A stretch of DNA of 29,279 nucleotides, taken from a virus. This document shows positions 1 to 25,584 of the stretch, one piece after another. Within the stretch, counting starts at the first letter, position 1. The number at the start of each line of letters is the position of its first letter. The notes beneath the pieces are model-generated. The model worked only from the letters and a program-made list of their open reading frames with translations, was not told the DNA's origin and made no database searches. The position numbers and the translations under genes were made by a program. The stretch spans positions 1 through 29,279 of the IMG/VR virus record IMGVR_UViG_3300046009_011060. One strand, written 5' to 3'.

Positions 1-1466
1 TAAACAGTGTAACGGTTGTTCAAGTTACCTGATTTTTGGATACCAAATGCGTAAGATGCTTTAGTTACATCACCATCAGAAGTTGAAGCAAATCCTGGGA
101 TTGATTCAAGGATAGTTGCAACTGATGGAGAACATACCATAAAGTTAGCACCACCACGTAAAGTCTTTTGGTGAATTTTGTTAGATACTTTTTGGAATTT
201 AGTACCTAATGTTTGGAACCATTGACCTTGTGTGTTGTAGAATCCTAAAGTGTCAAATCCTGTTTTAGCAGCATTTAATGAACGGTTATTTACAGCTGAC
301 CAATACTCATCTGCAGCAGAAGCATCTTGGATCAACATATCTAAGTTTTCTAAATCGATCTCAAGAGCGATATACTCAGACATGATTGAAGTTAATTCAG
401 CTTCAGCATCCAATGATTGGTATGCGTTCAAATCTTGAGCGAATTCTGGTGTCCATTGTGCTTTTAATTTTCTTGTTTTAGCAACAATAGCTTCAGATTT
501 CATCTGGATATTGATTTGTGGAATAGCTAATTGATCAGCAGAAGTAGATTCAGCATTTGGATAACCAGCACCGCTATTATCTTCGAAATCACCTCTATAG
601 TTATCAGCTGGTTGTTGGTTGTAGTAAACTACGTTTGTAGCAACACCATCAACTGGGATATCAGTAGTAGCTACTGAACCAGTGAATATGAAGTAAGTAT
701 AAGTACCATCGTTTCTAGTATATTGTGGTAACATTTTAGAAACAGTACCAGTTGTTAAAACTGAACCTGAAGATAATACAAATGCACGAACACCTTTTTT
801 ATCTGGGCGAGTTAAAGCAGCATCAGCTACACGAACTTCAGTAAATTGTCCTGCAGCAACTGAAGCAGATAATTCAGCAGCATATTGTACATCAGCCCAA
901 GAAGCTGTTGTTACTGTTAAGTTAGCATCAGAAATAGATGCTGAGAATTGGTTGATTGAATAAGCAAATCTACCAGCACCATATAAACCGTTAGAAGCAT
1001 CAGCATTAGCTCCTGGGTTAGTGTTACCATACATAGATGAAGTAGCACCATAAACATCCCCACCAGGACCAAATGGGCCAGTTGGAGCTGCTTTAGATGA
1101 AGCACCATATTGGAAATCTAGGAAAAATACAAGACCTGAAGGTAGGTTCATTGGTTGTACTGACATGAATTCTTTAGTTGATAAAGAACCAAATACTTTA
1201 CGTACCAATGGAAGAGCTACACCAGCCCATTGCTCACCTTGTCCTACGTTAAATGAAGCACCACCTAAGTTTGTTGAAGATTGCTCAACAACTAATTGTT
1301 TTGCTTGGTTTTCAAGGATCATAGCCATGTTGTTTTTATCAACTTCGCTTCCTAGTCCTTCTAATAGGCCTGTTTTAGACCATTTTGATGCCATTCTAGC
1401 AGCATCACTCTGCATGTTTTTCCAACCTGATGCAGAGCTTTCTAATAATGAATTAATACTTGACAT
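1..1466 (-). CDS. 23: Major capsid protein, T4 gp23-like (3' end outside window)
   Basis: The reading frame opens at an ATG at 1466 and runs off the left edge after 488 codons without a stop. It aligns by eye with T4 gp23, the precursor of the hexameric capsid subunit. The block VAKTRKLKAQW...EFAQDLNAY...DAEAEL...ALEIDLENLD corresponds to the T4 EAKSRQLKAAYSIELAQDL...DADAEL region, and SVQPMNLPSG to GVQPMNSPTG. The N-terminal stretch contains ILENQAKQLVVE, matching the T4 pro-region FENQEK; T4 is cut after E65, and here VVE ends at residue 61, with another possible site LLE|G at 34-37. The gene follows the scaffold gene with a 32-nt gap, as in T4. T4 gp23 is 521 aa, so only the C-terminus should be missing. 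Confidence 0.96.
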   Translation of the reverse strand, partial: MSSINSLLESSASGWKNMQSDAARMASKWSKTGLLEGLGSEVDKNNMAMILENQAKQLVVEQSSTNLGGASFNVGQGEQWAGVALPLVRKVFGSLSTKEFMSVQPMNLPSGLVFFLDFQYGASSKAAPTGPFGPGGDVYGATSSMYGNTNPGANADASNGLYGAGRFAYSINQFSASISDANLTVTTASWADVQYAAELSASVAAGQFTEVRVADAALTRPDKKGVRAFVLSSGSVLTTGTVSKMLPQYTRNDGTYTYFIFTGSVATTDIPVDGVATNVVYYNQQPADNYRGDFEDNSGAGYPNAESTSADQLAIPQINIQMKSEAIVAKTRKLKAQWTPEFAQDLNAYQSLDAEAELTSIMSEYIALEIDLENLDMLIQDASAADEYWSAVNNRSLNAAKTGFDTLGFYNTQGQWFQTLGTKFQKVSNKIHQKTLRGGANFMVCSPSVATILESIPGFASTSDGDVTKASYAFGIQKSGNLNNRYTV

Positions 1467-1498: not shown

Positions 1499-2902
1499 TT
1501 AAATTAATCCAGCCAATTTCTGCATTCTTTTAAATACATCGTTTGACTCTACGATTGGTTGTTTTGTAGTTGGAGTATTAGTTACTTTTGAAGCTCTACC
1601 TAAGTTTTCTTTAATTGTAGTTTTCGATGTTTTAATTCCCTCGTTTAAAGTTTCGAATACAATTTTTACTTCACTTACGTTTTTAGCTTTGTCAAATGAA
1701 CTTAATACTTTCACTTTTTGACTTTCGTTTAAGTTTTTAGCTTTGAAGATTTTATTTGAATAAAGCAATTTAGCGTTTAATAAATTGATTTCATTCAATT
1801 CAGCTTTCAAAGTTTCGATTGTGGAAAGAGCTTCAGCTAATTCTTCTTCCATTTGAGTTGAATCACCTTTAGTTGCTTTTTTAATATCTTTTTCAATTTT
1901 TTCACTTTGAGAAACCATTTTTTCTATAGGAATATTTTTTTCCTTTGCTATATTTTGTAAAACAGTTAACATAAAATTCTTAGGATTACTGGGTTCCCCT
2001 GCTTCATCAAGGCTATCATCAAGGCTAAGACCTAGTTTATCTTGAATAAAATCTAAATTATCTAGGACTTTTTGTTTTAGGGCAGGATCCTTTTTCATAT
2101 CTGCTTGTATAATCGCCCATTTTTCATCCAATGTTCCTGTTTGTTGAGATCTTACTAAATCCATTATTATTTTTTCTAACTGTTCTTTTTTTACAGCTCC
2201 TTTAGTAAAATAATAAGCAGTACTTAATGCAAATAAACCCGCTGAAAAGCCTGCTGCGGCCCATTGTACTACTGTTGATGGATTAAAATCTTCATTAGTA
2301 GCATTTTTATTTTCTTCCATGTCTTCAATTTCTTTTAATAATTCTGCTAAATCTACTTCTTCTTCATCTTCATCAGACATTTCCATTTCTTCACCTTCTT
2401 CAGCTTCGAATTCAGGTCCTGCTTCCAATTCTTTATCTGCAATCATTTGCGCGATAACGTCTTCAATCATTGACTTAATTTCATCGTCTGAAAGGTCTTC
2501 CATTTCAGTGTCTTCTGTTTCTTCTTCCTCTTCCTCTTCTTCACCTTCTTCGGCTTCGTTAAGGTTTTCTTCCATCTCTTCTTCTTCGTTTAGCTCTGCT
2601 AAAAGTTCCTCTAAATCAACTTCGTACATATTTTCGCCTTCGCCTTCTTCCATTTCTTCTTCATATAATGAAGAATCATCTTCGATATTTCCATGACCTT
2701 TTACATTGATCATAGGGCCAAATCCGGCTTCATCTAACTCTTCTTCTTCTTTTTCCATTTCTTGAAGTTTTGCAGACAAAATAGATTTAAGTTGAGGTGT
2801 AAAGGTTTCTTCTAGAGCTGCTTTTGCGTTTGCTATAGCCATTTCTTTTACAGCTTTAGCTTCAGCGATTGCTTCTTTAAGCATTTCTCTGTTTGTTGCC
2901 AT
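1499..2902 (-). CDS. 22: Acidic prohead core scaffold in the gp22 position
   Basis: This 467-aa protein lies between protease and capsid genes, where T4 has gene 22, the major scaffold of the prohead core that is later digested by gp21. Residues about 48-195 are extremely acidic with long Glu runs. The ends are helical and Lys-rich, with coiled-coil character near 335-400. Sites fitting gp21 cleavage are visible: LKE|A at 8-11, IAE|A at 12-15 and LNE|A at 114-117. The protein is longer than T4 gp22 (about 270 aa) and contains a hydrophobic segment at about 209-231 flanked by charged residues, which is unusual for a scaffold. It ends in VFKRMQKLAGLI, a peptide that recurs at the N-terminus of two other proteins in this window. 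The role rests on position and composition, not on clear homology. Confidence 0.8.
   Translation of the reverse strand: MATNREMLKEAIAEAKAVKEMAIANAKAALEETFTPQLKSILSAKLQEMEKEEEELDEAGFGPMINVKGHGNIEDDSSLYEEEMEEGEGENMYEVDLEELLAELNEEEEMEENLNEAEEGEEEEEEEETEDTEMEDLSDDEIKSMIEDVIAQMIADKELEAGPEFEAEEGEEMEMSDEDEEEVDLAELLKEIEDMEENKNATNEDFNPSTVVQWAAAGFSAGLFALSTAYYFTKGAVKKEQLEKIIMDLVRSQQTGTLDEKWAIIQADMKKDPALKQKVLDNLDFIQDKLGLSLDDSLDEAGEPSNPKNFMLTVLQNIAKEKNIPIEKMVSQSEKIEKDIKKATKGDSTQMEEELAEALSTIETLKAELNEINLLNAKLLYSNKIFKAKNLNESQKVKVLSSFDKAKNVSEVKIVFETLNEGIKTSKTTIKENLGRASKVTNTPTTKQPIVESNDVFKRMQKLAGLI
1512..1535 (-). repeat. Repeat copy A: codes the FKRMQKLAG peptide at scaffold C-terminus
   Basis: These 24 bases match 19949-19972 at 23 of 24 positions; the single difference is C at 1520 against T. 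Both copies are read on the minus strand in the same frame and encode FKRMQKLAG, once at the end of the scaffold and once at the start of a different protein. A third, more diverged copy of the peptide lies near 18712-18735. Confidence 0.8.
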
Positions 2903-3091: not shown

Positions 3092-3724
3092 TTAAAATAT
3101 TGGGCATGTGCCTTTAGCACATAGAATTTCTGTTAAGATTGAATTTGTACGAGCATATTCATCTAAATATGTTGAACGTGATTCATTTAATTGACCATTT
3201 TTCATCCATGAATCTGGGTTGGAAGGGTTAGATACTAGATCCCATGTAAGGAGTTCAAAATCGTCTTGGACTTCCATTACCTCGCCCATTTGTTTTAAAG
3301 AACCCATACCGCGAGAGGAAATACCAATTGTTAAACCATTGTTAACTAAAGCACCTGCTATACGTCCAGATAATGTACCTTTTTCTCCTTGATCTGAAAA
3401 TATTTCAACAGTTCCCCATATCTCATCTCCATCCCACCATACTTTTCTAATAGCATGAGATGCATTTTTTAGATTGATTACTTGAGAGTCTGGGTGATCT
3501 AATTCACCACATGTTTCGGTTGTTTTCTGGTTGATTTTGCGTTGAAAATTGTCGATTTCGCGTTCCCACAACTCACGTTTGTAATATCTTCCATTACCGT
3601 TTTTTACTTCAACGGTTGCTAAAACACCTTCAACAAATACGTTTCCGCCGTTTCGCATTCCCTCAACTAAACGAACTGGTTTAGGAGAGAATTGTCTAGT
3701 TTCTATTAAGAGTTGTTTGTTCAT
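3092..3724 (-). CDS. 21: Prohead core protease, T4 gp21-like
   Basis: This is the serine protease that matures T4-type proheads by cutting scaffold, capsid and internal proteins. The 210-aa product has the expected features of the gp21 family: the histidine motif GELDHPDS, the serine motif GISSRGMG (nucleophile Ser) and the downstream DLVSNPSNPDS block. I chose the ATG at 3724, four nt past the upstream stop at 3729. Twelve further codons are open upstream, but they overlap the preceding gene. The N-terminus MNKQLLIETRQF contains LIE|T, a possible self-cleavage site. The C-terminal region has LNE|S. It sits directly upstream of the scaffold gene, as in T4. Confidence 0.92.
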   Translation of the reverse strand: MNKQLLIETRQFSPKPVRLVEGMRNGGNVFVEGVLATVEVKNGNGRYYKRELWEREIDNFQRKINQKTTETCGELDHPDSQVINLKNASHAIRKVWWDGDEIWGTVEIFSDQGEKGTLSGRIAGALVNNGLTIGISSRGMGSLKQMGEVMEVQDDFELLTWDLVSNPSNPDSWMKNGQLNESRSTYLDEYARTNSILTEILCAKGTCPIF

Positions 3725-3728
3725 GTTT

Positions 3729-5579
3729 TTAGTAATTTTCATCATATGACATTTCATCATTTATCATATCATTTAATGATATTTCTTCTATGTCATTTTC
3801 AGTTTCATCAATTACTTCTTTTTTCTTTCCTTTGGTTTTACCAATCATTTTTTCAACTTTAGCCTTAGCTTGCTCTAGTTTTTTGATATCTTTTTCAAGT
3901 TCTTTAACTTTTTTCTTATCAGTTAAAGCTTTCATATCTTCATCCTCGTCAAGTTTACCAAGTTGAGATTTACGTTTGTCAATCAAAACATCAATTTTAT
4001 CTAGTTTGGATTGTAAAACTTCATGTTCTGCTTCTTTGTTGATATCTGCTAAATCTTTTTCTACACTTTCTTTAAGTGATTGAAGTTCTTTAAGATTTAA
4101 ATCTTCCCCTTCAAACATTGGTGGTGGGATAATAGCGACACCTCCTTTAGCGTTTGGTTTAAGATCTTCTAATTGTTTTTTAAATTTCATTAAAGCTCCA
4201 ACATTTATAGGTCTTCCTCTTCTTACTTCTCCTGATTCAGCTTGGGCTATTTTAGCATCGATTTCTTCAATTTTTTTCTCTATCCATTTTATAAGTTCTT
4301 CTACTTCATACCTATTGTCTTTAAATTTAATTTCATGATATAAAACGTCTTTTCCAAGTACAGGATAAACAGTTGTTTTTGAATCAGCAAATTTCTTAAA
4401 TAAAGCTCTAATCATCGGCCAATATCTATCTGATATTTCATTTGTAATGATTTTAAGACGATTTCTATTGTCAGCGATTTGTTTTTCTCTAGTACCTCTA
4501 CCTTTTTCCATTCCTTCTAGGGTTACATAAAGTAAATCTGAGATAAAAATGGTGTAGTCAGGGGTAATTCGGATATGAGGGATTTTTAATGATTCATCAT
4601 ATGAAGGTGCATTAGGTCCGGGATTTAAGAGATTAAATGCTTTTCTAACTTCAGGGGTTAAAATGTAGTAAGTTGGGATTTTTTGTTCTCCTTTTTCAAG
4701 ATTAGCAGTATTGATAGTTGGGATACCATAATTTCCTCCTCCTCTTACTTCTTCCAATTCAGCATCAATCATTTCACGGATTGCTTTACGAAGTTTTTCT
4801 TCTTCTAAAGAACCATATGTTTTAAATTGAGCTTTATTTGCTCTAATTGTTTTACCTTGTTCAGTTTTTAATACTAGGTTACCAACTTCGTCTTTTTTCT
4901 CTACTGTTACTGTAGTACCTTTATATTTTACTTTATCACCTACGTTAAGTTCTTTAGATTCATTTAAATTGCCGTAACCAGAAGATTTATATTTTCCAGT
5001 AGCCTCTTTTGGGGTACCTAATCCTGGGTGTTCAGTTACATAGCCTAAATCTTTAACTCCAAATTGGCCATCTTTTGTATAATGAATTGGATCTTTTGCT
5101 AAGTTTTTAAATACGATGTCTTTTAATTCTTGCATCGTTTTATCAGCATTTTTAGGATCTTTCATTTCAGCATAATAACCCATCATAATTTGATCAAATA
5201 TCAAATTGTCAGGATTTTTATCATCTGTTTTGTCATATTGTTTTTCAAGATCTTTTTCTACAGGTTTAGATACTTTTTTCTCTTCAGCTTTTACTTTTTC
5301 GTCTTCGTCTTTTTTCTTTTTAGCAGCTTCAGCTAAGAAATTTTCAAATGCTGTTTCATATGATTCTTTTTTCTTAGGTTCATATCCAGCAACCATACTT
5401 AAACCAACTATATTTTCTGATATAATGCTTTTTGTTTTAAGAGATGCAGCTGCTTCTTCAAATGTAGCAGAATTTGGTACTATATGAGGGAAGTCACGTT
5501 TAGCTTCTGCTAAGAAAACGCCTTTATGGCCTTTACCTTCTTTAATTAATAGATACTGATCTTGTAAGGTTTTTTTCAT
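3729..5579 (-). CDS. Large core-like protein with repeated protease sites
   Basis: This 616-aa protein is not one I can name. It lies between portal and protease genes, where T4 has the small core genes 67 and 68. It is highly charged: FLAE|A occurs twice (residues 22-26 and 81-85), fitting gp21 cleavage. LNES near 200 is followed by a beta-rich stretch (VGDKVKYKGTTVTVEKK) and by a helix LRKAIREMIDAELEEV. Residues about 270-480 look like a folded domain, and from about 490 to the end there is a long Lys/Glu coiled coil. The start overlaps the upstream stop as ATGA. I infer a prohead core or internal protein that is partly digested in maturation. A structural role outside the core cannot be excluded. 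Confidence 0.75.
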   Translation of the reverse strand: MKKTLQDQYLLIKEGKGHKGVFLAEAKRDFPHIVPNSATFEEAAASLKTKSIISENIVGLSMVAGYEPKKKESYETAFENFLAEAAKKKKDEDEKVKAEEKKVSKPVEKDLEKQYDKTDDKNPDNLIFDQIMMGYYAEMKDPKNADKTMQELKDIVFKNLAKDPIHYTKDGQFGVKDLGYVTEHPGLGTPKEATGKYKSSGYGNLNESKELNVGDKVKYKGTTVTVEKKDEVGNLVLKTEQGKTIRANKAQFKTYGSLEEEKLRKAIREMIDAELEEVRGGGNYGIPTINTANLEKGEQKIPTYYILTPEVRKAFNLLNPGPNAPSYDESLKIPHIRITPDYTIFISDLLYVTLEGMEKGRGTREKQIADNRNRLKIITNEISDRYWPMIRALFKKFADSKTTVYPVLGKDVLYHEIKFKDNRYEVEELIKWIEKKIEEIDAKIAQAESGEVRRGRPINVGALMKFKKQLEDLKPNAKGGVAIIPPPMFEGEDLNLKELQSLKESVEKDLADINKEAEHEVLQSKLDKIDVLIDKRKSQLGKLDEDEDMKALTDKKKVKELEKDIKKLEQAKAKVEKMIGKTKGKKKEVIDETENDIEEISLNDMINDEMSYDENY

Positions 5580-11082: not shown

Positions 11083-11925
11083 TTAGAATAATTTATCTAA
11101 TTTAGATTGGATTTCTCCGTTTAATTTATTTAATTTTTTAAGTTCGCCCATCAAATCTTCTCTTTCTGTACCTTCAGCTCCTTTAATTTTACTAGCTAAT
11201 TCTTTCATTTTATCTTTGGTTTGAGTTTGGGTTTTCAAAAGAGCATCTTTATCGTTAGCTATCCTATCTAATTTAGGAGTTTTAGAAGCTGCTGCGGCTG
11301 CTTTATCAGTTTCTGTTGCTTTAGGTTCAGATACTTTAGGTTCAGATATTTTAGGTTCTTTTGCTACTTTGGGTTCTTTTTCTGTTTTTTCACCAGCTAC
11401 TTTACCTCTTTTTTTATCTGATTTACTTAAATATGGAGTAAAGTTAGGTAATTCTTCTCCAGTTTTAGGATTTTCAAAGTATTCATCCTCTGGGCGGTTT
11501 AAGAATTTTCTTATTTCTTGGTTGTTGAATGTTGCTGTATCAACTCCCATATCTTTACTTAATTGATTAGTATCTACTGTACCTTCATCTTCTAATTTAG
11601 TTAATAGGAGATTAAGGGCTTTACTTTTAGATGTATTTTCATCTCTAAATTTATTTAAAGTTGATTTAAACCCTTCCATATCGGATATATCATATATTGG
11701 GGTTTCATTTAGTTGATCTTCTTTAATTTTTTGACCGCCCGTTGTTTTAATACTTTTAATATTGCTATCTTTTTTTAATCTAGCTATTTCTGCCTTATCT
11801 GCAGGGGTATTATATGCCATAACATCTGTTTCACCTTTTGCATTAGTAACAGTAACATTAGATTCTTCATTCAATGCTGCAGCAATTTCTTCACGTACGA
11901 TTTCAAGTAAACGGGATTTTTTCAT
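11083..11925 (-). CDS. Core or internal head protein with targeting-type leader
   Basis: This 280-aa protein begins MKKSRLLEIVREEIAAALNEES, an amphipathic helix ending in LNE, matching the other putative capsid-targeting leaders. A second LNE|T lies near residue 74. The middle holds a small, possibly folded domain (about 75-150). It is followed by a low-complexity stretch with repeated KEPK/SEPK units (about 183-205), an Ala-rich segment, and a C-terminal coiled coil. The gene is transcribed alone: a perfect late promoter lies 12 nt before its ATG and a strong terminator 60 nt after its stop. A separate late transcript suggests high expression, as expected for an abundant head component. No homologous family is recognised. 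Confidence 0.75.
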   Translation of the reverse strand: MKKSRLLEIVREEIAAALNEESNVTVTNAKGETDVMAYNTPADKAEIARLKKDSNIKSIKTTGGQKIKEDQLNETPIYDISDMEGFKSTLNKFRDENTSKSKALNLLLTKLEDEGTVDTNQLSKDMGVDTATFNNQEIRKFLNRPEDEYFENPKTGEELPNFTPYLSKSDKKRGKVAGEKTEKEPKVAKEPKISEPKVSEPKATETDKAAAAASKTPKLDRIANDKDALLKTQTQTKDKMKELASKIKGAEGTEREDLMGELKKLNKLNGEIQSKLDKLF

Positions 11926-18270: not shown

Positions 18271-18756
18271 TTATTGATAAGTTTCAAACATATCATCAGC
18301 TAAATCCCAATCTTTTCCAGATTCGGTAATTACATTAATATAATTTACAAAATCATTAGTTAAATCATCAATATCCATTGCTTTGTAACTTAATTTTTTG
18401 CTAGGATTGTAACTAGGATCCATATACCCAGCATCAAAATCCTCATATAAGTTCTCAACAAATCCTTTTATTAAAGCAATAATATAATTATTATCTAAAG
18501 GTTTATCATCTCTTAAAGGTAATAATGATTTAAAATAAGGAATAGCTTTAATAAGATCACTTTCAAGTTGTTCTATATCTAAATACCCTCTATTAATATC
18601 ATCTGTCCATTTAGATGGTAATTCTTCATCATCATCTGGGGTAATATAGTTATTTTTAATTGATAAATCATCATATTCTTTCAATTCAGATTCAGTAATT
18701 AATCCAGCTAATTTTTGCATACGACGAAATTCTTCATTTAATGGTTGTTTTTTCAT
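18271..18756 (-). CDS. Acidic protein with MQKLAG targeting-type leader
   Basis: This 161-aa acidic protein begins MKKQPLNEEFRRMQKLAGLITESE. The segment FRRMQKLAGLI is the same peptide as the scaffold C-terminus and the N-terminus of the gene at 19363-19983. It is followed by ITE|S, a fit to the gp21 cleavage rule. The remaining 130 residues are helical with many Asp and Tyr, and no known domain is recognised. I infer that the leader docks the protein in the prohead core and is removed on maturation, so the mature acidic domain would be packaged. The gene precedes a terminator-like hairpin. The start is an ATG with an A-rich leader. Confidence 0.7.
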   Translation of the reverse strand: MKKQPLNEEFRRMQKLAGLITESELKEYDDLSIKNNYITPDDDEELPSKWTDDINRGYLDIEQLESDLIKAIPYFKSLLPLRDDKPLDNNYIIALIKGFVENLYEDFDAGYMDPSYNPSKKLSYKAMDIDDLTNDFVNYINVITESGKDWDLADDMFETYQ

Positions 18757-18774
18757 AATTTCATTAGTTATATA

Positions 18775-19254
18775 TTATACATATTGGGTGACCCATTTTG
18801 GTTTATTGTTTAATTTTTTCCAATCTAATTTTTTTACTTTTACCTTGTCATTAATATAAAAATTCTTATACGCTTCCACAGTATCTTCTAATTTATATTG
18901 ATCGGGCATACACTGAGGAGGGTTAACAAATCCGGTATCAGGGATACTAGGTTCGTTATTTTGTAACCATTCAAGTACGTCTTTTGTCTTATGTTTTTTA
19001 CCATATCTTTTTTCAAATTCATCACATATTTCTAAACCATGAGATATAAGCCATCTATAATGTTGTATTGATTCTCTTACCCATTTTGATGATGGGTGGT
19101 TGGTGTGTGATTGTTTATAAGGAGCAGTTGAGCCGCTTACCCAATGAGCAGTACTACACATTTGTGCACTTTCAATCTGCATTTTTCTAATATGATCATC
19201 TGCTAATTCACGCGCAGCAATGATCGGATTTTCATTAATATAAAATATATTCAT
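18775..19254 (-). CDS. Conserved phage protein (MNIFYINENP family)
   Basis: This 159-aa protein belongs to a family that I recognise from many marine and cyanobacterial myoviruses, where it is annotated as hypothetical. The conserved blocks are MNIFYINENPIIAARELADDH, KMQIESAQMCSTAHW, YKQSHTNHPSSKWVRES, HYRWLISHGLEICDEFEKRYGKKHK, PPQCMPDQYK and the closing AYKNFYINDK. The many conserved His, Trp, Arg and Glu residues suggest an enzyme or a nucleic-acid-binding protein, but I know of no proven function. A strong terminator and a TATATTTAA element lie back to back upstream, with the ATG 14 nt after the element. Confidence 0.75.
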   Translation of the reverse strand: MNIFYINENPIIAARELADDHIRKMQIESAQMCSTAHWVSGSTAPYKQSHTNHPSSKWVRESIQHYRWLISHGLEICDEFEKRYGKKHKTKDVLEWLQNNEPSIPDTGFVNPPQCMPDQYKLEDTVEAYKNFYINDKVKVKKLDWKKLNNKPKWVTQYV

Positions 19255-19362: not shown

Positions 19363-19983
19363 TTACACAGCTGCTATTTTTTTAGCTAAATCTACTACTT
19401 CAGAAGATTTAAAAGCAGATAAACCACTTTCTAAACCTTGCATTACTGTTGAATGAGCTTCAGTAGCACCCATTCCGCTAGATATAGCAGCAGCTGCTAA
19501 CACGGCAGCATATAAACCATGAGCGGCTTTATGTAGTTCAGATTTTTTATCATGAACATCTTGATTACTATATTTTGATGGAAATGCTTTTTTTAACATA
19601 GCACCAATGGCATCCATGTAAGTATGTTCTAGGGAATGTCCCCATTTTTTAAGAGCATTACCTACAACTGTTCCTTGTTTTTTATCTTTTTGGAATACAG
19701 ATGATACTACATTTACTCCTTTACCTAAAGCACTAATTAATCCAGGTGCTCCAGCAATTAAGCCTAATGTTAAAGCGGCTCCTTCTTGGAGTTCTTTATC
19801 TTTTGGGGAAGTTTGGATTGATGATACACTAGATTTAAGGGTTGCTAATGCTTGTTTTAAACCAATTTCGGCACCTTTATCAGCTTGTGGGTCTGTTGAT
19901 GCTGCTGGTTTATTATTATTCGGGGTAGTTTCTTCTAAAATAATACCTGCCAATTTTTGCATTCTTTTAAATTCTTCAGTCAT
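19363..19983 (-). CDS. Hydrophobic Ala/Gly-rich protein with MQKLAG leader
   Basis: This 206-aa protein begins MTEEFKRMQKLAGIILEETT, the leader peptide shared with the scaffold C-terminus and the gene at 18271; ILE|E is a possible cut site. A linker rich in Asn, Pro and Ala follows. Two hydrophobic helices, at about 70-95 (LGLIAGAPGLISALGKGVNVV) and about 163-180 (AAVLAAAAISSG), flank an amphipathic, His/Lys-rich middle. The composition fits a membrane-active protein, for example one that helps genome delivery, but this is speculation. No family with known function is recognised. The strong terminator at 19279 lies 50 nt past the stop. Confidence 0.72.
   Translation of the reverse strand: MTEEFKRMQKLAGIILEETTPNNNKPAASTDPQADKGAEIGLKQALATLKSSVSSIQTSPKDKELQEGAALTLGLIAGAPGLISALGKGVNVVSSVFQKDKKQGTVVGNALKKWGHSLEHTYMDAIGAMLKKAFPSKYSNQDVHDKKSELHKAAHGLYAAVLAAAAISSGMGATEAHSTVMQGLESGLSAFKSSEVVDLAKKIAAV
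19949..19972 (-). repeat. Repeat copy B: codes the FKRMQKLAG leader
   Basis: It matches 1512-1535 at 23 of 24 bases, in the same reading frame, although the two host genes are otherwise unrelated. Near-identity at DNA level, including third codon positions, suggests recent copying or gene conversion and not only selection on the peptide. Confidence 0.8.
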
Positions 19984-20031: not shown

Positions 20032-20307
20032 TTATGCTTTAGTTACGCTAGTAATTTTATATGGGATATTACCTGTCATGTCTTCTACTCTATCCTTCCA
20101 AAACCCAACAGGGAATTTTGGGTTAAGTTTTTGCAGTTGGGATGGTTCAAGTGTAATTACTGTACTGTCTGGATGGGATGGGCCTCCATCCATTTCAGAA
20201 GCAATATAATCAACTAGATATCTTCCAGGTTCAGTCACAGCTAAAGTTTCGTTCAAAATTTTAATGATTTCTTCTTTGATAAGTTGTTTAAGTTGAGATG
20301 TTTTCAC
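20032..20307 (-). CDS. Small protein with targeting-type leader, GTG start
   Basis: The coding frame starts at a GTG (20307-20305) that overlaps the upstream stop as GTGA; no ATG fits. The 91-aa product begins (M)KTSQLKQLIKEEIIKILNET, an amphipathic helix ending in LNE|T, nearly the same as the leader of the gene at 25584-25850 (KDLKQLIKEEIKNILE). The body (EPGRYLVDYIASEMDGG...GFWKDRVEDMTGNIPYKI) is not recognised. It is the last gene of the tightly overlapped 20032-21741 run, which supports co-translation. Confidence 0.7.
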   Translation of the reverse strand: MKTSQLKQLIKEEIIKILNETLAVTEPGRYLVDYIASEMDGGPSHPDSTVITLEPSQLQKLNPKFPVGFWKDRVEDMTGNIPYKITSVTKA

Positions 20308-20564
20308 GATTTATGTATTTTTAATTTTAATGTTCCTGTTCCTTTTATTACACGATGCCACTCATGTCTTGGTATAAATATACGTTCTTTTAGTGAGGTA
20401 GGCAAATGGTTATCTAATTGAAGTTTCCAATCTGTATCTTCTAAAATTTCGATAGTTCTATCTTCATTATCACGGTGCCATAACAGTTCAATTGGATCTA
20501 TATTTTCGTTAAATTCACGAATAATATATTTGTCTGTAACTTCTATGTCTGTGTATGGGGTCAT
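20304..20564 (-). CDS. Cupin-like small phage protein
   Basis: This 86-aa protein has the block LLWHRDNEDRTIEIL...WKLQLDNHLPTSL...IFIPRHEWHRVIKG, which I recognise as a short beta-barrel protein widespread in phages. The WHRD, HEWHR and alternating strands fit a cupin-type fold, and the His residues could bind a metal. It has no targeting-type leader, unlike its neighbours, which is a useful contrast. It overlaps both flanking genes by 4 nt (ATGA upstream, GTGA downstream). The function is unknown. Confidence 0.68.
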   Translation of the reverse strand: MTPYTDIEVTDKYIIREFNENIDPIELLWHRDNEDRTIEILEDTDWKLQLDNHLPTSLKERIFIPRHEWHRVIKGTGTLKLKIHKS

Positions 20565-20821
20565 TTTTCTTTAGGTAAAAACCAATTTGAACACCATTTT
20601 GAAGGATCTTTAATTTGATTTCCTTCATTATCTACTAATTCAGCTGTTCCCATATGTTCTTGATAATATGAATTACCACACATATGTTTCCCCTCAACTT
20701 TACTTTCCCATTCTATATAGTAAAATTTACAAACATGACAACCAAACCCTACTGGTGAATACATGTAAGCAGGTGATTTTGGTGATTTTTCCTCTTTAAG
20801 TAAGTCTATTAATTTAATCAT
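20561..20821 (-). CDS. Four-cysteine HiPIP-like protein with targeting-type leader
   Basis: This 86-aa protein begins MIKLIDLLKEEK, nearly identical to the leader of the ART-like gene at 22424 (MIKLIDILKEIT). The body has four cysteines, C28-x2-C31-x16-C48-x28-C77, ending in KWCSNWF. The order CxxC...C...(G/K)WCxxW is that of high-potential iron-sulfur proteins (HiPIP), which hold a 4Fe-4S cluster, although the last spacing here is longer. A zinc site is the alternative. No signal peptide is present. Position among leader-bearing genes suggests that it is packaged. Confidence 0.62.
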   Translation of the reverse strand: MIKLIDLLKEEKSPKSPAYMYSPVGFGCHVCKFYYIEWESKVEGKHMCGNSYYQEHMGTAELVDNEGNQIKDPSKWCSNWFLPKEK

Positions 20822-20824
20822 TTG

Positions 20825-21349
20825 TTAAAAGTCTAACATTTTAAAATTTCCTTTATCATCAATTCCAATATTTTCTTGATGAAAATCTAATTCATCATAT
20901 CCTTCCTTCTCTAATATTTTATCAACATCTTTATATAATTTTTTTAATTTAAGAGTCATTTCAAGTAATTCAGGATGTTGTTTTATAACAACATCTAAAG
21001 GATTATCAGGATCAAATTTTTTAGGGTTATAAAATGGGATTGATTTGAAGGGATTTAATAATGATGTAAGTGATTTTAATTTATTATAATATTCTATAAT
21101 AGGTTTAATATTTAATTTTTCAATAACTAAATACTTACCAGTTACTTTATATACTTTAGGAAAATATTTTGGATGATTTCTAAACATATCAGCATGATAT
21201 TGGATATCTTCAGGGTTGTTATAATTGGATATTTTAATAACTTTAGAAGGGTCGATTTTAGAGGGATAAGCAGTAAATACTCCTCCACTTCCTAATTCAG
21301 GTTTAGATAAGATATTTAATTCATTTAATATTTCAAGTAATTTAATCAT
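20825..21349 (-). CDS. Minimal protein-kinase-fold protein with targeting-type leader
   Basis: I chose the ATG at 21349, which overlaps the upstream stop as ATGA; five codons further up are also open. The 174-aa product begins MIKLLEILNELN, a leader like those of its neighbours. Kinase-like features follow in order: a Gly-rich loop ELGSGGVFTAY (18-28), the ATP-binding Lys in VIKIS (K39), a hinge-like LVIEKL (about 74-79), the catalytic-loop pattern DFHQEN (D155, N160) as in GDLHPxN of APH-type kinases, and MLDF (D173) at the position of the metal-binding Asp. The protein ends right after that Asp, so the C-lobe is almost absent. It may be an active minimal kinase or a non-catalytic ATP-binding relative. 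Confidence 0.7.
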   Translation of the reverse strand: MIKLLEILNELNILSKPELGSGGVFTAYPSKIDPSKVIKISNYNNPEDIQYHADMFRNHPKYFPKVYKVTGKYLVIEKLNIKPIIEYYNKLKSLTSLLNPFKSIPFYNPKKFDPDNPLDVVIKQHPELLEMTLKLKKLYKDVDKILEKEGYDELDFHQENIGIDDKGNFKMLDF

Positions 21350-21741
21350 TTTGTTTTTCCCCATTTTTTACCTTTACCAGGTGTTTTACATTGTGAAGGT
21401 GTAGGACGACATGAAGGATATTTTGAACGTTTTTCTCCTTCTTTTCTACCACATGCTTTATAACCTCCATCTCCATCAGGTGCATTACAATCTACCCATC
21501 CACCTTCTTTTCCTTTAGGTCCTTTACGTTTGAACCAAGTACGAAGTGTTTCTTTAACTTTTTCTAAAAGTAATTCTTCTTTAACACCTTTCCAAATGTC
21601 TCCTTTTCTACATCTAACTACAGCACCTGATTTGTAAGCGGAAGGTTTATCGAATTTGCGGTCAGCAATGCGTAAACATCTGTCGCGTTTTTTTTCTTCT
21701 TCAGCAATAACCTCGTTAATAAGTTTCTGTAGTCTATCCAT
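21346..21741 (-). CDS. Cys-rich basic phage protein (DUF5872-like)
   Basis: This 131-aa protein starts MDRLQKLINEVIAEEEKK, a leader helix with INE|V and IAE|E. I recognise the body from marine phages: CLRIADRKFDKPSAYKSGAVVRCRKGDIWKG, then TLRTWFKRKG, GGWVDCNAPDGDGGYKACGRKEGEKRSKYPSCRPTPSQC, a pattern like the DUF5872 family. Six cysteines and many Lys/Arg suggest a zinc-binding, DNA-touching protein; this is inferred. The ATG at 21741 overlaps the upstream stop by one base; GTG and TTG codons at 21744 and 21747 are possible but less likely. The stop overlaps the next start as ATGA. Confidence 0.75.
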   Translation of the reverse strand: MDRLQKLINEVIAEEEKKRDRCLRIADRKFDKPSAYKSGAVVRCRKGDIWKGVKEELLLEKVKETLRTWFKRKGPKGKEGGWVDCNAPDGDGGYKACGRKEGEKRSKYPSCRPTPSQCKTPGKGKKWGKTK

Positions 21742-22412
21742 CACCAAAATCCTGAAAATGAAGATTTTAAACCTAATAATTTAGCATAACGTGGTAATCT
21801 ACATGACCAATATGATGCTTTTGTTCTATCTTTTTTGTTTTTACAATCGTGACGTGCTGCAAATGCTCTACGTGCCTCTGGATTGTTTATTTTAGCTGAT
21901 AAGCCGGATGTGTCTCCAAAAGATACTTTTTTTACTTTACCTTTATCTCTTACGTAAACATAGAATTTTTTAGATCCACCACGTTTTGGTTTCCCAATTG
22001 GTGGGTTCTTTTTACCTTCTGCTTCTTCAAGTTCTTCTTCCTCTAACATAGGTAAGTCTAAAGGTACTTTTTTACCTTCATACATTCCATATTCACCTAA
22101 ATTAGTTTCAAGTAAAATTTCTTTATCATCATCGTTTACATGAATAATTTCACGTAAATATAGGTAACGAGCTTCCGACCATAAATCGAGAAACGATTTA
22201 GAGCCATAACGGAACGTGTTTTCGGTGAGTGGGAGTTTTTTATCCACGTGATATCGCAGATTTTCCGATAATATATCTTTTTTAACTAAACTTTCGTTTA
22301 ATACTACTCCAGGATTACCTACATTGTCACAATCGTGACATCCACAATTGCAAGAATCTTTTTTAGGTGGAGTAGATAATACTTCTTTAATTAAATTTCT
22401 TAGACGTTCCAT
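21741..22412 (-). CDS. Modular virion-type protein with Cys cluster
   Basis: This 223-aa protein begins MERLRNLIKEVLSTPP, a targeting-type leader. A Cys cluster CNCGCHDC (about 22-29) follows, which may bind zinc. Next is a block I know from environmental T4-like phages: LSENLRYHVDKKLPLTENTFRYGSKSF, EARYLYLREI, LLETNLGEYGMYEGKKVPLDLPM. After an acidic linker, the C-terminus reads GGSKKFYVYVRD, KVSFGDTSGLSAKINNPEARRAFAARHDC, YWSCRLPRYAKLLGL, a conserved basic module often seen in phage structural proteins. LSE|N, LTE|N and LLE|T sites recur through the N-terminal half. A head-associated role is inferred; the exact function is unknown. Confidence 0.75.
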   Translation of the reverse strand: MERLRNLIKEVLSTPPKKDSCNCGCHDCDNVGNPGVVLNESLVKKDILSENLRYHVDKKLPLTENTFRYGSKSFLDLWSEARYLYLREIIHVNDDDKEILLETNLGEYGMYEGKKVPLDLPMLEEEELEEAEGKKNPPIGKPKRGGSKKFYVYVRDKGKVKKVSFGDTSGLSAKINNPEARRAFAARHDCKNKKDRTKASYWSCRLPRYAKLLGLKSSFSGFW

Positions 22413-22423
22413 AAATATAAATA

Positions 22424-22993
22424 TTATTCAGCTGCTCTTCTAAAAGAAGAAGTAGATTTAGCTTGAGAAAATTTAAGTGGAATATTTTTAGATTTAATCC
22501 AATCCAGAACAAAATTATAATCATTCAATATTTCATCATAATATTTAGTACCTTCATGATAATCTTTAAGATATTCTTTAAAACTATCTGGGCTGATAAT
22601 GGTGATTTCTTCAATATAAGGGGTTAAATCAATCTCACCATATTTTTTAGAATTAATCCTTTCTTCAGCTTCATAATTTGGAGCGTTTTTAGAATATAAA
22701 TCTTCTCCACTTTCTATATCTGCGTATGGTTCAAATTTATATTTATTAGACATTTTATCTCCATCAAGTTTAATTCTAACATGATGTTTTTCTTCTGATA
22801 ATGTTCCTAAGTTAGGGTTTCGGGTAAATGAGTAATATTTATTTGCTGCAAAACTAGAAAAAGAAGGATCTAATATAATTTTCCCTTTATTTTTAATCAT
22901 TGAAGCAATAGTATCAGTATCAGTAAAATGATATATATCTCCTACTTGTTTACCTTCAGTAATTTCTTTTAATATATCTATTAACTTAATCAT
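22424..22993 (-). CDS. DarT-like ADP-ribosyltransferase candidate with targeting-type leader
   Basis: This 189-aa protein begins MIKLIDILKEITEGKQ, a leader with LKE and ITE|G, a close fit to the gp21 rule. The body follows the layout of small ADP-ribosyltransferases: YHFTD (21-25) near the start, YYSFTRNP (53-60) in the middle, HVRIKLDG (71-78), and YEAEERI (107-113) before a strand (YIEEITIIS). The His/Tyr-Ser/Glu order and the 'AE' before a C-terminal strand recall DarT-type and related phage ARTs, with E110 or E111 as candidate catalytic Glu. T4 packages and injects the ART Alt, so a packaged ART would be a functional parallel. It ends in RRAAE, as does the protein at 24676. Family membership is probable, activity unproven. 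Confidence 0.6.
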   Translation of the reverse strand: MIKLIDILKEITEGKQVGDIYHFTDTDTIASMIKNKGKIILDPSFSSFAANKYYSFTRNPNLGTLSEEKHHVRIKLDGDKMSNKYKFEPYADIESGEDLYSKNAPNYEAEERINSKKYGEIDLTPYIEEITIISPDSFKEYLKDYHEGTKYYDEILNDYNFVLDWIKSKNIPLKFSQAKSTSSFRRAAE

Positions 22994-24675: not shown

Positions 24676-25584
24676 TTACTCAGCTGCTCTAATATCCAGG
24701 TCTGGGGAAATTAAAGTATATACATTTTTTATAGTTCTAGTTTTTTTAAGTTGTCCTCCAGAAACATATGGTTTACCAAAATCTACTTCAACCCATTCAA
24801 CCATTCCTCTACTATCAGGTTCACCAGATCTAGTTCCTGAAGATGCTGCGGCTACAACATTTCCAGTTCCATAATCATCATGAGTGAAGCTGGTACCAGG
24901 TCTGTATGAGGTTTTTAGTTTATATGGGAGAGTATCAGGGTTAATTAATGTTTTTTCTTGGGTTGGTTCATCTAATGGTATCACATATTCAAAATCAGCT
25001 AAAGTAAGTATTTTGATAGGTTTAATAGGTTTTTTAGTATTTTTTAAGTGTTCAATAGATTTTTCTTCAATATCAGAGTCATCCCCTGTTCCTCCCATTA
25101 ATGTAATAAGACTATCATCTCCTATTAAGGCGTAATAGTATTTGTTTGTGTGGGATTTAATTATATCATTTTTAGTAGATTCTGTTGTAAAAAGTAAATC
25201 ATATTTTTCTCCTTGAGATGATAATACAGGTTTTAATATTTTATATACTACAACTTCTTTAAATGATGCAGGAATAGTTTTTATATGTTCTAGATATCCT
25301 AAACGTTTTAATAATTCACCTTCTATTTGGTTGATTAATGTTTCTTTAGTTTCTTGAACATTTCTATCTCCAACCATCTGTTGAGTTAAATTAGGTATAT
25401 CTAATATATTTTTCCTCTCAAATTTACGATCAACATAATGTTTAGTTAATTTAAGTTCATCTAAATCAACTACTTCACTTAATAATTTATGAAGCAATGT
25501 GACATCCTTAGGGTCCTTCATATCAGGGTATCCTTTAGGAAACTTATAAGCTATGCTATTTAAAAATTGTTCTAAAATATCCAT
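24676..25584 (-). CDS. Conserved phage protein with C-terminal HxxYGxGxV module
   Basis: This 302-aa protein begins MDILEQFLNSIAYKFPKGYPDMKDPKDVTLL, a start that I recognise from environmental T4-like phages but cannot assign. The centre (about 95-200) is mixed alpha/beta. The C-terminal part has FTHDDYGTGNVVAA and MVEWVEVDFGKPYV, a small beta module like the VxHxxFGxGxV element at the C-terminus of UvrD-type helicases, which binds partner proteins. The last residues are RAAE, shared with the ART-like protein. The ATG overlaps the upstream stop by one base, within the run of core-like genes at 25584-27915. A virion-related role is inferred from these neighbours. Confidence 0.7.
   Translation of the reverse strand: MDILEQFLNSIAYKFPKGYPDMKDPKDVTLLHKLLSEVVDLDELKLTKHYVDRKFERKNILDIPNLTQQMVGDRNVQETKETLINQIEGELLKRLGYLEHIKTIPASFKEVVVYKILKPVLSSQGEKYDLLFTTESTKNDIIKSHTNKYYYALIGDDSLITLMGGTGDDSDIEEKSIEHLKNTKKPIKPIKILTLADFEYVIPLDEPTQEKTLINPDTLPYKLKTSYRPGTSFTHDDYGTGNVVAAASSGTRSGEPDSRGMVEWVEVDFGKPYVSGGQLKKTRTIKNVYTLISPDLDIRAAE

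Follow-up and report, generated by a model that had tools for sequence, protein, structure and literature searches.

In a lineage of T4-like phages, the conserved C-terminal tail of a predicted gp22-like prohead scaffold protein recurs as the predicted N-terminal leader of many unrelated proteins. To judge from its sequence context, this peptide, (N/S)(D/E)xFxRMQKLAG(I/L)I, is probably a cleavable head-docking tag. Cleavable N-terminal targeting sequences are already known from T4; what is new is the identity of such a sequence with the C-terminal tail of the scaffold itself. Within a large uncultured family of T4-like phages, the reuse of this scaffold end piece as a probably removable N-terminal address label suggests a route by which proteins could be loaded into the head. 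The recruitment of T4-type proteins into the scaffolding core has been said to 'remain mysterious' (PMC9958956), and since scaffold and cargo have the identical peptide, this question reduces to that of one tail receptor. On balance, we lean towards a natural and widespread address code, in which cargo would enter the head by mimicking the C-terminal anchor of the scaffold, with the mimic at either end of the cargo protein and removed by the protease. Such a code would mark mostly uncharacterised injected proteins, including Acb1-like enzymes, and could be read from sequence alone.

The minus strand of the window (the whole analysed stretch of a virus record, 29,279 bases) encodes a T4-like head module (Table 1). 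The protease shares 30% identity with T4 gp21 (E 1e-23), and the catalytic motifs GEL[ND]HP and SSRG[LM]GSL are kept between the two proteins. A portal (Portal_T4, E 1e-67) and a terminase are encoded in the same module. Between protease and portal lies a gene for a large protein (3729-5579) with no Pfam or PHROG match above threshold. In T4, the gene for the scaffold protein gp22 sits between the protease and MCP genes. Flavobacterium phage immuto and Microcystis phage Mel-JY01 have scaffold genes homologous to the gene at 1499-2902, in the same protease-scaffold-MCP order, there with at least one small gene separating protease from scaffold. The product of the window's gene has no Pfam or PHROG match, and profile comparison with T4 gp22 (hhalign) gave a weak match (probability 20%, P 0.001, 31 colinear columns). 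We assign it to the gp22 type mainly on gene order. Among solved structures, no relatives were found for the scaffold or the cargo families. Hereafter, class A leader denotes the RMQKLAG-type tag and class B leader the pattern M..L..LIKEE (also MKLxxIILE).

Table 1. Features of the window, with positions counted from its first base (a slash marks the predicted cut)
Feature	Positions	Strand	Remarks
gp23-like major capsid protein (MCP); candidate receptor of the tag	3..1466	-	Pfam Gp23, E 4.4e-48; incomplete, at the window edge
gp22-like prohead scaffold protein of 467 aa, with the putative tag as C-terminal tail	1499..2902	-	between gp21-like protease and gp23-like MCP
C-terminal tag NDVFKRMQKLAGLI, residues 454-467 of the scaffold	1502..1543	-	tail conserved in the scaffold scan
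IVE, residues 450-452 of the scaffold; predicted prohead-protease site releasing the C-terminal tag	1547..1555	-	I-x-E position
gp21-like prohead core protease	3092..3760, start probably 3724	-	Pfam Peptidase_S77, E 6.8e-25
Class B leader proteins	11083-11925, 20032-20307, 20561-20821, 20825-21364, 21346-21747, 21741-22412, 22424-22993	all -	
Cargo candidate 1, 161 aa	18271..18756	-	carries leader
N-terminal leader MKKQPLNEEFRRMQKLAGLITE of the 18271-18756 protein; ends in protease motif ITE/S	18691..18756	-	
Cargo candidate 2, 206 aa, helical/hydrophobic domain, exchangeable leaders	19363..19983	-	carries leader; 20-member family
N-terminal leader MTEEFKRMQKLAGIILE of the 19363-19983 protein; ends in protease motif ILE/E	19933..19983	-	
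LQE, residues 65-67 of the 19363-19983 protein; predicted protease site, the second in this protein, ahead of the hydrophobic domain	19783..19791	-	

The peptide occurs exactly three times in the entire record of 29,279 bases. The scaffold ORF terminates with VESNDVFKRMQKLAGLI and a stop codon, the tag portion being NDVFKRMQKLAGLI, and the proteins at 18271-18756 and 19363-19983, both on the minus strand, have the N-termini MKKQPLNEEFRRMQKLAGLITESE and MTEEFKRMQKLAGIILEE. This bears out the preliminary description, which had reported one peptide at the C-terminus of the scaffold and at the N-termini of these two proteins. The match of the leaders to the scaffold tail (BLOSUM62 scores 47 and 56) was reached by none of 1000 scaffold shuffles and is far above chance.

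In related phages, MQKLAG-type peptides lie almost exclusively at protein termini, and random positions were not seen. A position-blind DNA pattern scan of IMG/VR for RMQKLAG returned 123 ORFs, with 86 C-terminal copies (no more than 6 residues from the C-terminus), 34 N-terminal and 3 internal. A looser motif in 235 loci gave 143 C-terminal, 52 N-terminal and 5 internal copies, so that 195 of 200 were terminal; reversed and permuted motifs matched 0-2 times in 2.26 Mb, compared with 200 matches for the motif itself. The variant RMQMLAG, scanned independently, was N-terminal in 92 cases, C-terminal in 8, internal in 5 and at contig edges in 3. At least two of these five internal matches are plainly unrelated, and others have a start codon immediately before the leader. 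In these data the contigs are fragments and the start codon is the first ATG; the loci were partly selected by motif, which biases counts of leaders per genome, and terminal position itself was not a selection criterion.

The tail was also recovered when scaffolds were collected blind to it, with the scaffold core domain only as query. Seventy of the 76 unique scaffold tails end with R[MFWL]..LAG, and the remaining six are near-variants, for example RMQKIAG and RMQKLAN. Among isolates, the scaffold of Flavobacterium phage immuto ends in RWQKLAGIIK and that of Microcystis phage Mel-JY01 in RMKKLAGIVK. A scaffold relative from an uncultured huge phage (LR756508.1, 484 kb, locus L570; also L571 and L573) has the tail SRMQKLADIS, and one ORF of the same 484-kb sequence contains the leader-like MDKSRFQELAGVLSED. 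The tag was also observed at the C-terminus of non-scaffold proteins (loci L102, L104, L173, L155, L228 and L235), several of which start with a class B leader, so that both of their ends may be cleaved. One ORF of contig IMGVR_UViG_3300032268_000759 (L396) has two tandem class A leaders, each with its own protease motif. The peptide was not found in the literature searched.

At the level of motifs, N- and C-terminal tags alike are joined to the protein body via a predicted site of the T4 gp21 type, [I/L]-x-E. T4 gp21 cleaves after L/I-x-E (PMC9026906). Past the N-terminal copies, [LI]xE lies within 10 residues of the tag in 92% of cases, compared with 8% for random 10-mers from the same proteins, and the typical junction reads LAG-I-I-T-E/S. 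Relative to the motif R, the 135 unique C-terminal copies have I at -9 in 112 and E at -7 in 114, and a site follows the tag in only one of them. Four of the five internal copies in the first set are flanked by protease sites on both sides. Because [I/L]xE stands on the body side of the tag in both arrangements, the protease could remove the tag from whichever end carries it.

Grouped by their mature parts, the 231 N-terminal leader proteins (446 loci) make up about 122 families, a count in which one large cluster may be chained. When 124 leader representatives were aligned, columns conserved at 90% or more were found only within the leader, namely R, M, Q, L, A, G and the protease-site Glu. 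Almost none of the mature parts match Pfam or PHROGs. With the leader as a sequence criterion, the proteins that uncultured phages would inject can be listed, here 231 that are nearly all unannotated. The preliminary description had proposed that scaffold and cargo share a targeting peptide able to function at either terminus; terminal placement, the protease motif on the body side and the roughly 122 unrelated families together lend this strong support.

Of the two cargo candidates of the window, the 18271-18756 protein had no Pfam or PHROG match above cut-off, and no homologue among the fetched loci except in the window's own record. The 19363 protein was aligned with 19 relatives, some of which have the class A tag and others class B leaders, all ending in a similar site. 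The sole invariant residue of the family is E67, the Glu of the second LxE site. In seven relatives the gene is the immediate upstream neighbour of the scaffold gene, and in Mel-JY01 it comes directly after the MCP gene. The structure of the 19363 protein was predicted with a pLDDT of 64 (AF2), and Foldseek found no match below E 0.2 (PDB) or 0.49 (BFVD). A YExAFEHFL/YExAFENFL module is common to the head-module protein at 3729-5579 and 53 ORFs, and 40% of the ORFs with this module have a class A leader, compared with 4% of all ORFs. The exchange of leaders, the location in the head module and the sharing of YExAFEHFL thus tie the leader proteins to the head.

A gene for a pyrimidine-dimer glycosylase (Pfam Pyr_excise, T4 DenV family; window 18775-19254) lies between the two leader genes. 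Across the loci, which were selected for leaders, a DenV-family homologue adjoins class A leader genes in five of the nine that hold one. Similarly, denV in T4 adjoins ipII/ipIII.

Among injected proteins, early-acting counter-defence proteins are to be expected, the T4 example being the anti-restriction protein IPI. We observed 2H phosphoesterases resembling the anti-CBASS protein Acb1 with a class A leader in at least three contigs (L423, 3425-3991; L195, 4266-4829; L297, 4273-4836) and also in L561. The family scores just below the cut-off for Acb1 (26.8 bits, cut-off 27), and both HxT motifs of 2H phosphoesterases are present (HCTLLYG and HMTIGYL). We regard these proteins as candidate injected anti-CBASS proteins; an injected anti-CBASS enzyme here would parallel IPI, which is itself injected. 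PADLOC gave marginal matches only.

How the tag might work is suggested by the predicted structure of the last 128 residues of the scaffold (AF2), in which three helices are followed first by a disordered linker and then by an isolated helix spanning DVFKRMQKLA (455-464). The tail is amphipathic. As an amphipathic helix, it would tie the core to a receptor within the prohead; the likeliest candidate is the inner face or the N-terminal delta-domain of the coat protein, followed by a groove on the scaffold. Cargo would present a copy of the tail to this receptor, dock there and be enclosed during head assembly. Firing of the protease would remove the scaffold tail and the cargo leader; the core would then leave, and the cargo would stay behind in the head, unattached, until it is injected together with the DNA. 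In T4, too, the scaffold leaves the head. For the leader proteins, we infer head localisation, cleavage, packaging and injection from sequence features.

This arrangement, with the tail as anchor, the leader as mimic and the protease as release, is preferred because the scaffold tails of herpesvirus and P22 bind coat protein. In herpesvirus, the coat protein is the partner of the last 25 residues of the scaffold (UL26/UL26.5), which a protease related to gp21 removes at the M site during maturation (PMC12474303). Cleavage of a C-terminal tail that follows a maturation-protease site frees the core there, and a comparable predicted site, IxE at -9/-7, precedes the C-terminal tail in more than 80% of the tails described here. 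Reuse of the herpesvirus tail as a cargo leader is not described in that work (PMC12474303). In P22, the C-terminus of the scaffold binds coat, and engineered cargo has been loaded by fusion to this coat-binding part (PMC9962691). The P22 cargo is a laboratory construct with a C-terminal helix-turn-helix, whereas the tag here is natural, N-terminal, about 14 aa long and putatively cleavable. Complete genomes add to this picture: immuto encodes the tail and at least two leaders, on the genes at 25061-25456 and 111675-112139, and Mel-JY01 the tail and no class A leader. Since Mel-JY01 has a tail without a class A leader, the main task of the tail would not be cargo docking. The tail being universal and the leaders patchy, the tail probably came first and was borrowed by cargo.

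Other explanations of the shared peptide were weighed against docking on a head receptor. The preliminary description had also noted that 1512-1535 and 19949-19972 agree in 23 of 24 bases, and had read this as recent copying of a DNA cassette. The match is present as claimed, trimmed to its best stretch (the whole codons of FKRMQKLAG give 24 of 27), and the third DNA copy matches at 19-20 of 27 bases over the same codons. However, in simulations under the codon usage of the window, two independent copies of FKRMQKLA share a mean of 20.8 of 24 bases, with P(>=23)=0.14, and 70% of the scaffold tails of other phages are as close to the DNA of the 19363 leader as the window's own tail. Given that the peptide is conserved, the DNA identity lies within chance expectation; codon bias and peptide conservation account for it. 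Silent positions vary, several of them in the third copy, and across phages the identical peptide is kept with different codons. The reading as a recently copied cassette is thus not sustained, and it is very improbable that the similarity reflects intragenomic copying and descent, without selection on function. The only hint of copying is a shared rare TTG (Leu) codon, one that tails often use and other N-terminal copies seldom do.

Pairing of leader and tail as self-associating helices, with cargo docking directly on the scaffold tails, would suit the presence of the same peptide on both partners, the predicted amphipathic helix on a flexible linker and the co-purification of T4 internal proteins with gp22 (PMC9026906). 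This is possible but doubtful: the tail exists without leaders in Mel-JY01, and the analogous tails of herpesvirus and P22 bind coat protein instead. Strict covariation of tail and leader within a genome was not found, residue 2 varying independently, with RM leaders beside RW or RF tails. By analogy, attachment of the tail to the coat shell is no less likely than pairing between helices. The peptide might also recruit the gp21-type protease to its substrates and load no cargo, as its constant proximity to an [I/L]xE site and the sites around internal copies would allow. We consider this improbable, since the motif stands upstream of the scissile Glu in leaders and downstream of it in tails and so is no fixed substrate determinant, and since most other [I/L]xE sites, such as those in the MCP, lack it. 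The mature parts, mostly of uncharacterised function, would also fit a different role of the tag at the ends of proteins, be it a degradation signal, binding to a host protein or membrane, or incorporation into the tail or baseplate. There is little to recommend such roles, as head assembly best accounts for the presence of the tag on the scaffold and for its association with prohead-protease motifs, and 19363-family genes adjoin scaffold and MCP genes.

If the tag docks cargo on a head receptor and is then cut off, it works like the capsid targeting sequence (CTS) of T4, and homology to that CTS is not claimed. Like the T4 proteins IPI, IPII, IPIII and Alt, in which a short N-terminal propeptide on unrelated cargo precedes an L/I-x-E site for gp21, the phages described here have a short N-terminal segment of 10-20 aa on unrelated proteins, an L/I-x-E motif and a gene for a gp21-type protease. 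The T4 capsid-targeting leaders are cut by gp21 at L/I-x-E (PMC9026906), and the cargo pool is variable in both systems. In contrast, the leaders of T4 internal proteins (MKTYQEFIAEA, MKTFKEFTS) do not resemble RMQKLAG and have no detectable similarity to T4 gp22 (P 0.75-0.84), whereas the leader here equals the C-terminal tail of the scaffold. According to a review, other core proteins of T4 do not share the CTS (PMC9958956), and the tag described here differs further in being also C-terminal, and internal between two sites. In phage P1, N-terminal residues of DarB direct the protein into the head (PMC9024508), which is likewise an N-terminal capsid targeting signal; a separate scaffold protein was not identified in the P1 study, and a relation to a scaffold tail was not reported (PMC9024508).

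Class B leaders start 7 of the 36 proteins of the window, where about 0.5 would be expected. We compared them with the acidic-region helices of the scaffold by running position-specific matrices over internal segments that share the pattern, and the comparison gave no sign that they mimic these helices; for most of them, the resemblance to the N-terminus of the MCP was not significant either. Each class B leader has an [I/L]xE site, and the leader resembles the 10-residue propeptide of T4 gp24, MAKINELLRE. In relatives, the class B motif occurs within the first 25 aa of 537 of 4657 ORFs, compared with 12-16 in the next two 25-aa bins.
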